From NCBI GenBank assembly GCA_025363655.1, contig JANYDK010000064.1, positions 1 to 64,000 on the forward strand: DNA of 64,000 bases, given 5' to 3'. The notes under the pieces are model-generated. The model worked only from the letters and a program-made list of their open reading frames with translations. It was not told where the DNA came from and searched no databases. This document shows, piece after piece, positions 1 to 4,626 of this stretch. A program made the position numbers and the translations under genes. How positions within the stretch are numbered: position 1 is the first letter of the stretch; each line of letters starts with the position of its first letter. This DNA is from Deltaproteobacteria bacterium. Lineage in GTDB: Bacteria > Myxococcota_A > Polyangia > Polyangiales > JADJMO01.

Positions 1-756
1 GAAGGTACGCCGCACTCGTTCGTCAACGGCCGCATCGTCAACGGCGCGGTGCCCTACGAGAAGTTCAAGAAGATCATCGACCAAGAGCTGGTGAAGGCCG
101 AAGCCAAAGTGAAGGGCGGTACCAAGCTCGAGGACGTCTACGCCGAGACCGTGAAGGGTGGAAAAGGCGGGCCCTTGCCGCCGCTCGCCATCCCCGCGAC
201 CGCGCCGTGGAAGGGGGGCCGCGACGCCAAGGTCGTGATCCAAATCTTCAGCGATTTCCAGTGCCCGTTCTGCAAGCGCGCCGAAGTGCCGATGCCGGGA
301 CAAGACGGCAAGATCGATCCCAACGGGGCCGGTCTCGCGGCGGCGATCACCAAGTACGGCGACAAGATCAAGATCGTCTGGCGCAACTTCCCGCTCGGCT
401 TCCACAACCGCGCAGAGCCCGTCGCCGAGTTCGCCGTCGAGGCGTTCAAGCAGAAGGGCAGCGACGGCTTCTGGAAGGCGCACGACGCTCTCTTCGACTC
501 GCAGCCGAAGCTGGAAGACGCCGATCTCCAGGCGATCGCGACCAAGATCGGGATCGACTGGGCGAAGGCCAAGGACGCCATCGACAGCCACAAGTACAAG
601 GCCGAGATCGACAGCGATCAAAAAGAGGGCGGCTCGGTCGGCGTGACCGGCACGCCTGGCTTCTTCATCAGCCCCATCGGCAAGCCCGGCAAGCTGCTCG
701 TCGGTGCGCAACCGGCCGACGCGTTCTACGCGGCGATCGACGCGGCGTTGAAGTGA
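1..756 (+). CDS. DsbA-family multi-thioredoxin protein, 3' part (truncated by window start)
   Basis: The frame is open from base 1, so the start and the N-terminal domains lie outside the window. The visible 251 residues hold the end of one DsbA-like domain (GTPHSFVNG, the cis-Pro region) and one complete domain with FSDFQCPFCKR (Cys88-Pro-Phe-Cys91 of the visible part) and GTPGFFISP as the cis-Pro loop. The family forms, breaks or shuffles disulfides outside the cytoplasm. The sequence is almost identical to the C-terminal third of the next gene, so the two are tandem duplicates. This copy ends at a Lys, three residues short of its twin. Whether its unseen first domain also carries UGA at the active site cannot be told from here. 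The domain call is firm; the partner substrate is unknown. Confidence 0.85.
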   Translation, partial: EGTPHSFVNGRIVNGAVPYEKFKKIIDQELVKAEAKVKGGTKLEDVYAETVKGGKGGPLPPLAIPATAPWKGGRDAKVVIQIFSDFQCPFCKRAEVPMPGQDGKIDPNGAGLAAAITKYGDKIKIVWRNFPLGFHNRAEPVAEFAVEAFKQKGSDGFWKAHDALFDSQPKLEDADLQAIATKIGIDWAKAKDAIDSHKYKAEIDSDQKEGGSVGVTGTPGFFISPIGKPGKLLVGAQPADAFYAAIDAALK

Positions 757-919: not shown

Positions 920-2965
920 ATGAGCAACGTGATGAACAAGGGGACAGCCATCGTCGGCTTCGTCCTCGCCTTCGTCACGGGAGCCGGCTTCATGTATGCC
1001 GTCGACCGTGGCAATGTACCGAAGGACGACGTCGCAGCCGCCGACAAGGCGAAGGCTGCAGGCGCTGGTCTCTCCGGTGACTGGAAGCAAGATGGTCCGA
1101 TCCCGCTGAGCGCCGCCGACCCCGTCGAGGGTCCGGTCGACGCGCCGGTGACGATCATCGAATTCAGCGACTATCAGTGACCGTTTTGTTCGAGGGTCGG
1201 TCCGACTCTCAAGCAGTTGATGACGGATTACGCGGGTAAGATTCGTATCGTTTGGAAGGATTTGCCGCTCGATTTTCACAAGAATGCGATGCCAGCGGCG
1301 GTGGCGTCCCGGGTCGTCTTCCTCGCGAAGGGCAGTGAAGCCTTCTGGAAGATGAACGAGAAGATCTTCGCCGGGCAGTCGCAGCTCTCCGACGAGAGCT
1401 ACAAGAAGTGGGCAGCGGAGCTCGGGGTCACCAGCGCCGATTTCGACAAATTCAAGGTCGAGGCGGAGAAGAAGGTCACCGCCAACCTCGAGGACTCGAA
1501 GAAGTACGGCATCCAAGGGACGCCCAACTTCCTCATCGACGGTGAGCCGCTCACGGGCGCGCAACCGGTCGACAAATTCAAGGCGGTCATCGACGCGCAC
1601 TTGAAGAAGGCCGAAGAGCTCAAGGGCAAGGGCATCGCGGCGAACATGATGTACGTCGAGATGACCAAGGCGTACTTCAACGCGCCGAAGGCTCCCGAGC
1701 CGACCGCCAAGGGCGACGACAAGCCCCCCGCGGAAGAGCCGGACGATCCGACGGTGTGGAAGGTCGACATCGCGGGCTCGCCGATCAAGGTCGGCATGGG
1801 CACCGACTGGAAGAAGAAGGCGGCGCTCGTCACGATCGTCACCTACAGCGACTTCCAATGCCCCTTCTGCAAGCGCATCGAACCGGCGCTGGCGCAGGTG
1901 GCCAAGGAGTACGGCGACAAGGTCGCGTTCGTCTGGAAGAACTTCCCCCTCGGCTTCCACAACCGCGCGATGCCGGCGGCGATGGTCGCGCTCGAGGCCC
2001 GGAAAGAGAAGGGCGACGAGGGCTTCTGGAAGGCCCACGACAAGCTCTTCGACATCCAGCCGAAGCTCGAAGACGCCGATCTCGAAGGCGCAGGCAAAGA
2101 CCTCGGTCTCGACGCCGCCAAGGTGTCGGCCGCGATCAAGGGCCTGATGTACAAGGACGACATCCAAAAGGACATGGACCAGGGTGGTGACCTTCACGTC
2201 GAAGGTACGCCGCACTCGTTCGTCAACGGCCGCATCGTCAACGGCGCGGTGCCCTACGAGAAGTTCAAGAAGATCATCGACCAAGAGCTGGTGAAGGCCG
2301 AAGCCAAAGTGAAGGGCGGCACCAAGCTCGAGGACGTCTACGCCGAGACCGTGAAGGGTGGAAAAGGTGGGCCTCTGCCGCCGCTCGCCATCCCCGCGAC
2401 CGCGCCGTGGAAGGGGGGTCGCGACGCCAAGGTCGTGATCCAGGTCTTCAGCGACTTCCAGTGCCCGTTCTGCAAGCGCGCCGAAGTGGCGATGCCCGGA
2501 CAAGACGGCAAGATCGATCCCAACGGGGCCGGCCTCGCCGCAGCGATCGCCAAGTACGGCGACCAGCTGAAGATCGTCTGGCGCAACTTCCCGCTCGGCT
2601 TCCACAACCGCGCAGAGCCCGTCGCCGAGTTCGCCGTCGAGGCGTTCAAGCAAAAGGGCAACGACGGCTTCTGGAAGGCGCACGACGCGCTCTTCGACAC
2701 GCAGCCGAAGCTGGAAGACGCCGACCTCCAAGCCATCGCGACCAAGCTCGGGATGGACTGGGCGAAGGCCAAGGACGCGATCGACAGCCACAAGTACAAG
2801 GCCGAGATCGACAGCGATCAAAAAGAGGGCGGCTCGGTCGGCGTGACCGGTACGCCTGGCTTCTTCATCAGCCCCGTCGGGAAACCCGGGAAGCTTCTTG
2901 TCGGCGCGCAGCCGGCAGACGCTTTCTACGCGGCGATCGACGCGGCCTTGAAGGGCGCGAAGTAG
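920..2965 (+). CDS. Membrane-anchored triple DsbA-domain thiol-disulfide oxidoreductase, probable selenoprotein (UGA = Sec87)
   Basis: This is a 681-residue protein if UGA at 1178-1180 is read through. The start ATG follows AAGGAG (907-912) by 7 bases. Residues 9-27 are a hydrophobic anchor, so the domains should sit in the periplasm. Three thioredoxin/DsbA-like domains follow. Domain 1 has FSDYQ-UGA-PFC (position 87, partner Cys90), domain 2 CPFC at 314-317, and domain 3 CPFC at 515-518. Each has its own GTPxF cis-Pro loop. Frame, homology and codon structure continue unbroken on both sides of the UGA, and the missing residue is exactly the nucleophilic cysteine. A SECIS-like hairpin follows directly. 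Codons just after the UGA (about 1181-1300) use T at third positions (TTT, TGT, GAT, ATT) far more than the other two domains. The alternative is a nonsense mutation (TGC to TGA); the hairpin argues against it. Confidence 0.82.
1178..1210 (+). promoter_or_regulatory. Selenocysteine UGA codon with bacterial SECIS-like hairpin
   Basis: After the in-frame UGA (1178-1180), GAGGGTCG (1192-1199) pairs with CGACTCTC (1203-1210), including one G-U pair. If the top G-C pair opens, the loop region reads GGUCC. Counting U of UGA as base 1, GGUC occupies bases 22-25, the same place as the SelB-binding GGUC of the E. coli fdhF SECIS. The bulged U17 of fdhF is not present (G here). The element lies inside the coding sequence, as bacterial SECIS elements do. 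Confidence 0.75.
2201..2945 (+). repeat. Second copy of a ~745-base tandem direct duplication
   Basis: This stretch repeats bases 1-745 with few differences; the first ~170 bases are nearly base-for-base identical. Protein differences are mostly conservative (for example IQIF/IQVF, SDGFW/NDGFW, KIGIDW/KLGMDW). It covers the end of domain 2 and all of domain 3. The unit length implies that the whole gene, about 2.2 kb with its leader, was duplicated in tandem. Confidence 0.9.
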
Positions 2966-3021
2966 CTCGAAGTCGGTCGTCGTAGCTCACGACGAGCGCC
3001 CACGACGAGCGAGAAAAGCGG

Positions 3022-3056
3022 GGGTGGGAGGGCATCGGCTCTCCCACCCTTTTTTT
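3022..3056 (+). terminator. Rho-independent terminator
   Basis: GGGTGGGAG (3022-3030) pairs perfectly with CTCCCACCC (3041-3049) and is followed by seven T (3050-3056). It ends the transcript of the DsbA-family selenoprotein gene and separates it from the MFS gene. Confidence 0.92.
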
Positions 3057-3123: not shown

Positions 3124-4626
3124 ATGGCAGATCGTCGCAACCGCCCGCTCATCGTCGCCGCGCTCATGCTCGCCCTCTTCACCGCGGCGCTCGAGGCGAC
3201 CGTGGTCTCGACAGCGATGCCGACGGTCGTGCGCGAGCTCGGCGGGCTCTCGCTCTACGCGTGGGTGTTCAGCGCCTACACGCTCGCCTCGACGGTGATG
3301 GTGCCGCTCTTCGGCAAGCTCTCCGACGTCTACGGTCGCAAGCCGGTGATGCTCTTCGGCATCGCGCTCTTCCTCGTCGGCTCGATGCTGAGCGGGCAGG
3401 CGGCGACGATGAATCAGCTCATCGTCTTCCGCGTCGTCCAAGGCCTCGGCGCCGGTGCGATGCAGCCGATGGCGATGACCATCGTCGGCGACATCTTCGA
3501 TCTCTCCGAACGCGGCAAAATGCAGGGTTATTTTGGCGCGGTTTGGGGCCTCGCCGGGCTCGTCGGGCCCTTCGTCGGCGCGCTCATCGTCCGCGTCGCC
3601 TCATGGCGATGGATCTTCTACATCAACGTCCCCTTCGGCGTCGCCTCCGCGGTCATCTTGATGGCGGCGTTCCACGAAAAGGTCGAGCGCCGCAAACGCA
3701 CGCTCGATCTCGCGGGAGCGATGGTCCTGACGGGCGCGATCGTCGCGCTCCTGCTCGGGACGCAGGGGCTCCATCCGGCGCCGCTGATCGCGCTCGCCTG
3801 CGTCCTGACGGCGCTCTTCATCTACATCGAGAGCCGCGCCGTCGAGCCGATCCTTCCGCTCGGGCTCTTCAAGAGCCGCGTCATCGCCGTCTCCAGCATC
3901 ACCAGCGCGCTCGCCGGCGCGGCGATGTTCGCCACCATCACGTTCGTGCCGCTCCACGTGCAGGGCGTCCTCGGCGGGAGTCCGAGCGACGCCGGCGCCG
4001 CCATCGGTCCGATGGTCGTGGCGTGGCCGATTTGCAGCGCGATCGGCGGCCGTCTCCTCGTCCGCGTCGGCTACCGGCCGATCATCCGCTTCGGAATGCT
4101 GCTCGTGGCGCTCTCGGCGATCGCGCTCCCTTTGCTCCTGCGGCCCGGCACGCCGGTGATGGTCGCGCGCCTCGTCTCCATCGGCTTCGGCGCCGGGCTC
4201 GGCTTCTCGCAGACCGCGGTGATGATCGCCGTGCAGACGAGCGTCGGCTGGGAGCAGCGCGGCGTCGCCACCGCGAGCACGCTCTTCTTCCGCAGCATCG
4301 GCAGCACCCTCGGCGTCGGCGCGCTCGGCGCGGTGCTCGCGGCCACGTTTCGCCGTTCGATGAGCAGCGTTTCCGAGGAGACGGTCAACCGCATGCTCGG
4401 CCCCGAGCGCTCGCAGATCGACCCGGCCGTCCTCCACTCGCTCGGCACCACGCTGCAAGAGGGGCTCACCACCATCTTTTGGGCGGTCGCCGCGATCGGG
4501 GTCGCTGGCTTCGTTGCAGGCCTATTTTTCCCGTCGATTTCGCTTCGACCTGCCGCTGCGCCCGCGCCACCCACGGCGGCCGACGACAAGGTCGGGAGCG
4601 AAGCACCGACCGCGCCGGCGTCCTGA
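3124..4626 (+). CDS. MFS efflux transporter, DHA2 (EmrB/QacA-like) family
   Basis: This 500-residue inner-membrane protein has about 14 hydrophobic segments, the usual size and topology of the 14-helix drug:H+ antiporter family. Near residues 62-75 it has the loop 2-3 signature (FGKLSDVYGRKP, motif A). A Gly/Pro-rich helix (GLAGLVGPFVGAL) matches motif C, typical of exporters. The N-terminus LEATVVSTAMPTV is also classic for EmrB/QacA members. No MarR- or TetR-type regulator lies beside it, so substrate and control are unknown. The ATG start is used because the first helix begins right after it. Confidence 0.88.
   Translation: MADRRNRPLIVAALMLALFTAALEATVVSTAMPTVVRELGGLSLYAWVFSAYTLASTVMVPLFGKLSDVYGRKPVMLFGIALFLVGSMLSGQAATMNQLIVFRVVQGLGAGAMQPMAMTIVGDIFDLSERGKMQGYFGAVWGLAGLVGPFVGALIVRVASWRWIFYINVPFGVASAVILMAAFHEKVERRKRTLDLAGAMVLTGAIVALLLGTQGLHPAPLIALACVLTALFIYIESRAVEPILPLGLFKSRVIAVSSITSALAGAAMFATITFVPLHVQGVLGGSPSDAGAAIGPMVVAWPICSAIGGRLLVRVGYRPIIRFGMLLVALSAIALPLLLRPGTPVMVARLVSIGFGAGLGFSQTAVMIAVQTSVGWEQRGVATASTLFFRSIGSTLGVGALGAVLAATFRRSMSSVSEETVNRMLGPERSQIDPAVLHSLGTTLQEGLTTIFWAVAAIGVAGFVAGLFFPSISLRPAAAPAPPTAADDKVGSEAPTAPAS

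Follow-up and report, generated by a model that had tools for sequence, protein, structure and literature searches.

A probable selenoprotein of the DsbA-like family with selenocysteine in the first of three linked domains

The window, a 64,000-nucleotide stretch of DNA from a draft genome of the order Polyangiales, carries on its forward strand an open reading frame (ORF) for a three-domain DsbA-like protein (920-2965), with an in-frame UGA at the position of the first active-site Cys of domain 1. Judged from sequence, the whole is best explained, with strong confidence, by an anchored three-domain DsbA-like protein in which the UGA at 1178-1180 is read as selenocysteine (Sec), at a site of most likely local Cys-to-Sec origin. 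That the UGA-containing ORF represents a genuine selenoprotein gene is highly probable; the suggestion of a probable selenoprotein, made in a first-pass annotation of this DNA, is well supported by (i) the Sec machinery of the genome, (ii) a predicted bacterial SECIS hairpin, and (iii) Sec-encoding homologues from other phyla that share this hairpin. Standard annotation would cut the gene at residue 86, and the Sec reading adds real protein.

Domain organization and active sites

The ORF starts with ATG, comprises 681 residues and ends with TAG at 2963-2965, with a Shine-Dalgarno-like AAGGAG (907-912) located seven bases 5' of the start codon; this and all other features of the window described here lie on the forward strand. 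Membership in the DsbA-like group is indicated by profile matches over the cut-off, each in several stretches (Pfam PF13462, 216.8 bits; PF01323, 202.9 bits), and by the presence of CxxC or UxxC motifs together with the cis-Pro. The N-terminus displays a motif common to the homologues, MNKGTAIVGF..F..G, and residues 9-28 (944-1003) form a hydrophobic helix in the predicted model, a putative membrane anchor.

Codon 87 (1178-1180) is the sole in-frame TGA upstream of the terminal TAG and reads FSDYQ-U-PFC, the frame, the translation and the homologue alignment placing Sec87 as the first residue of the U-P-F-C motif of domain 1, followed by the resolving Cys90 (1187-1189; translation and alignment). 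Thr201-Pro202 (1520-1525), within GTPNF, occupy invariant alignment columns, and we take them, from general knowledge of the fold, to be the cis-Pro position of domain 1. Sequence and alignment locate the active sites of domains 2 and 3, both CPFC, at residues 314-317 (1859-1870) and 515-518 (2462-2473), respectively. The first-pass annotation had read FSDFQCPFC in both sister domains, which is correct for domain 3 and one letter off for domain 2 (YSDFQCPFC).

The predicted structure of the 681-residue protein shows a mean pLDDT of 85 and a pTM of 0.50, with no confidence in the arrangement of the domains, and the single domains match the PDB structures of BdbD, ScsC and C. diphtheriae DsbA in sequence and fold. 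An intrinsic-terminator-like hairpin of 14 pairs followed by a T run stands 3' of the ORF (3020-3051), in a terminator scan that returned two such sites against 2.7 expected by chance.

Coding constraint on both sides of the UGA

The in-frame UGA noticed at the first active-site Cys is real. Alignment column 87 is occupied by Cys in 20/20 three-domain homologues, and the UGA falls on the one codon at which members of a known family carry Sec instead of Cys. The continuation of frame and homology on either side of the UGA, also noted at first pass, is borne out by comparison with a Cys copy of the gene in the same genome, which gives dN/dS values of 0.06 before the UGA, 0.17 after it, and 0.10 in domains 2 and 3. 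These ratios indicate that the sequence is coding under purifying selection on both sides of the UGA.

A predicted SECIS hairpin within the coding sequence

Immediately past the active-site codons, a 19-base hairpin, GAGGGUCG-GUC-CGACUCUC (1192-1210), is predicted as a bacterial SECIS element from folding, a recoding test and comparison with Sec homologues. It comprises an 8-bp stem and a 3-nt loop, GUC, starting with G, and folds at -13.4 kcal/mol (z -3.3 against shuffles), with the apical GU 20/21 nt past the UGA and a spacing of 19 nt from the UGA. The spacing and the GGUC apex also resemble those of E. coli fdhF. Published bSECIS criteria comprise a G within the first two positions of the loop, a loop of 3-9 nt, a stem of 4-16 bp, a distance of 16-37 nt from the UGA, and a minimum free energy of at most -7.5 (PMC13188914), and the hairpin falls within every one of these ranges.

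When the same peptide was recoded synonymously 20,000 times with the codon usage of the window, the same energy with GU at the apex was reached by 127 recodings (0.6%, p ~0.006); since the peptide itself favours a hairpin, finding one is in itself only moderately unexpected. Such a GU apex occurs in 0/34 Cys homologues. Within the hairpin, the Sec copy uses the rare codons AGG and ACT; compared with the Cys copy, its stem carries synonymous substitutions at R, P and T, together with one I/L difference. Third-position GC at 1150-1320 amounts to 0.60-0.80, compared with 0.80-0.95 in the Cys copy, a difference that extends past the hairpin.

A strict hairpin model with GU fixed at +20/21 passes 21 of 119 Sec loci, being too strict for other Sec groups, and a lenient model with a range near the published spacing passes 116 of 119; the latter is not taken as proof because, in GC-rich DNA, it would let through certain Cys homologues as well. 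About a dozen of the Sec homologues, among the matches listed, have the hairpin of the window almost letter for letter, the near-identical element standing 3' of the UGA in members of Acidobacteriota, Planctomycetota and Myxococcota. In two of the dozen, from Desulfuromonadales, one stem pair is exchanged on both strands of the stem.

The Sec decoding machinery

The genome, a 9.0 Mb draft in 150 contigs and 96% complete, encodes a tRNA-Sec with anticodon UCA (62.5 bits, cut-off 47), SelB (296 bits, over the cut-off) and SelD (340 bits). The selD gene (contig C90, locus positions 1480-2550) likewise contains an in-frame TGA, at codon 18 (GAG-U-ACK), which identifies it, from its reading frame, as a selenoprotein gene itself. 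The first-pass annotation would have abandoned its reading in a genome lacking selB or tRNA-Sec; both are present, so the reading passes that test, and the search for Sec genes that it proposed recovered selA solely as a fragment at a contig end.

Profile searches of the genome with TIGR00474 and PF03841 did not find selA, a gene present in 4/4 other genomes of the family. In a relative (G003), selA lies behind aroKB, a dehydrogenase gene and a gene for a Cys-rich exported protein. The genome of the window has aroKB and the Cys-rich exported protein at the end of contig C95, whose last ~150 bases (locus positions 3383-3529) encode a SelA-like N-terminus, a fragment only, 62% identical over 42 amino acids to SelA of G003. 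This shared gene order and the contig-end fragment attribute the profile misses to an assembly gap, and selA is most likely present, cut by the contig end. A tRNA-Sec is detectable in two of the four family relatives, which nonetheless have Cys at the site.

Sec relatives and known families

A degenerate search for F-x-D-[FY]-[QE]-U-P-[FY]-C over 84,980 species genomes returned at least 120 matching stretches, and the matches listed include Desulfobacterota, Acidobacteriota, Rokubacteria, Chloroflexota, Nitrospirota, Planctomycetota and Myxococcota. The literature counts UxxC selenoproteins of the DsbA-like and DsbG-like types among the known families (PMC13188914, PMC1794560, PMC1088965), and proteins of this sort are widespread. 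What is new is the combination of Sec in domain 1 only of a three-domain membrane-anchored protein, a position deep inside a Cys clade, and a Cys copy probably in tandem. Searches of the literature for selenoproteomes of myxobacteria or for triple DsbA proteins gave no relevant hit.

All three domains have their best family match in NF041057, the DsbG-like or Rcas_1661 thioredoxin-like (seleno)lipoprotein family, for which Sec and Cys members are known (PMC13188914) and whose UxxC stands in the same place as in the protein of the window. Domain 1 alone scores 87.5 bits, below the curated cut-off of 190, and the whole protein passes (193.8 bits) only because the three domains add up. In contrast to this lipoprotein family, the N-terminus MSNVMNKGTAIVGFVLAFVTGAGFMYAVDRG contains no Cys, and the protein is therefore without the lipoprotein Cys. 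The DsbA-like selenoprotein form 1 (PF01323, UxxC), a discovery of the Sargasso Sea survey (PMC1088965), likewise has Sec as the first active-site residue and the SECIS directly 3'. The collected Sec loci, among the matches listed, end at most ~225 residues past the Sec, leaving only one domain after the Sec site, whereas the protein of the window has two more Cys domains. A contig labelled Klebsiella pneumoniae with a Sec DsbA-like gene groups with a Binatota sequence (99/88) and probably stems from a metagenome bin that is mislabelled or contaminated.

The closest architecture is that of the three-domain DsbA-like proteins of the order (~650-700 amino acids, MNKGTAIVGF anchor; 41-66% full-length identity); in every one examined, each of the three active sites carries Cys, the copy in the window being the sole Sec one. 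Other TGA or TAG "stops inside" among the homologues were considered as further Sec sites and rejected, the active-site codon being Cys wherever it was read; most likely they simply terminate the reading frame where a domain ends. The structures that match single domains, BdbD (3eu3), ScsC (4gxz, 4xvw, 6mhh) and C. diphtheriae DsbA/TsdA (4pwo, 7unn), have no Sec and are separate chains, compared with three domains in one. ScsC of Proteus is a trimer of DsbA-like domains, and by analogy it may be a functional counterpart of the three linked domains.

The Cys copy and gene duplication

The nearest homologue, 88% identical in domain 1, is the Cys copy, which lies at the end of contig C81 of the same genome. 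The window itself opens with the 3' part of a paralogue (1-756; end of domain 2 and domain 3), 94.8% identical to the Sec copy at the nucleotide level and ending 163 bases 5' of the Sec ORF, from which the two copies are probably in tandem. Window positions 1-756 would then probably complete the Cys copy, the 5' part of which lies at the end of contig C81, the assembly probably having broken in the repeat between the two tandem copies. Between the copies, dS is ~0.8 in the 5' part and declines to 0.09 where the compared stretch ends, a pattern suggestive of gene conversion.

Origin of the Sec site and alternative readings

In a tree of 98 rows with the Sec column masked, domain 1 of the window is sister to the Cys copy of the same genome (100/99), within a family clade of six Cys rows and one Sec row (99/97) and, more broadly, a clade with 51 Cys rows and one Sec row (98/92). 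The AU test rejects a single clade for the Sec rows taken together (p 1.6e-66); as the constrained group includes other scattered Sec rows, more specific evidence comes from the nested branches. The Sec pattern occurs in 2/184 genomes of the order, one being that of the window; the second carrier (G079) has a one-domain Sec protein belonging to a separate Sec lineage. The nesting of the Sec domain deep in a Cys clade, beside a Cys copy, points to a local Cys-to-Sec switch, largely via synonymous hairpin-building changes, as the most likely origin. Local switches of this type are reported for many thiol-redox families (PMC1794560).

A true stop at the TGA, leaving the duplicate a pseudogene that yields an 86-residue fragment, is very improbable. 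The Cys copy of the same genome could cover for a lost copy, but the UGA sits exactly at the codon where a known family swaps Cys for Sec, a hairpin common to other Sec genes stands 3' of it, and the ORF remains intact for ~595 codons past it and constrained there, as the dN/dS values given above attest. Less credible still is a TGC misread as TGA by sequencing or assembly error: the TGA is known from one genome assembly, the draft is in 150 contigs and the contig opens within a repeat of this gene family, but the ~20% local difference from the Cys copy means that the region is no collapsed repeat, and an error would not also supply the SECIS codons AGG, GGT, CCG, ACT and CTC, the codon-frequency product for AGG-GTC-GGT-CCG-AC[CT]-CTC being ~7e-4.

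The alternative that accepts a real selenoprotein makes Sec ancestral in domain 1, the relatives and the neighbouring copy having gone back to Cys. Sec forms are widespread among single-domain relatives, the Cys copy retains part of the hairpin core (GTCGGTCC), and remnants of Sec-to-Cys change are known (PMC1794560); against this, a Sec nested in the Cys clades described above would need many losses where one gain suffices, and we regard ancestral Sec as unlikely. The retained hairpin core means that the Cys copy could be a reversion, and the neighbouring copy alone could have reverted after a gain in the common ancestor of the pair. We lean towards a recent switch after duplication, in which TGC became TGA, the SECIS arose by near-wholly synonymous changes in SRVGPTLKQ, the hairpin converged with those of other phyla, the adjacent copy stayed Cys, and gene conversion kept the 3' halves alike.

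Proposed mechanism and biological meaning

The Sec copy would have arisen in a duplicated Cys gene by local switch, with the Cys copy kept next door. SelB and Sec-tRNA(UCA) would bind the hairpin at 1192-1210, leading to insertion of Sec at residue 87 and to a product whose active site is U-P-F-C in domain 1 and C-P-F-C in each of the other two domains. The protein would be membrane-anchored and probably periplasmic, with three DsbA-like thioredoxin-fold domains. Sec is a stronger nucleophile than Cys, and domain 1 may act as the faster thiol/selenol exchange centre, its selenol being the attacking group. The predicted function is most likely that of an anchored, periplasm-facing disulfide reductase or isomerase, not a net oxidase.

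The first-pass annotation had further proposed a relay within one chain. In the three-domain homologues examined in the order, every domain carries Cys, so the architecture is independent of Sec; with all-Cys three-domain proteins as the norm and no confident domain arrangement in the predicted structure, a relay between the domains is unsupported.

The Sec and Cys versions, which probably adjoin one another in a genome equipped for Sec decoding, form a natural matched pair that lets one ask what selenium buys a disulfide-exchange enzyme. The gene pair also informs how a SECIS arises within coding sequence with little change in the protein.
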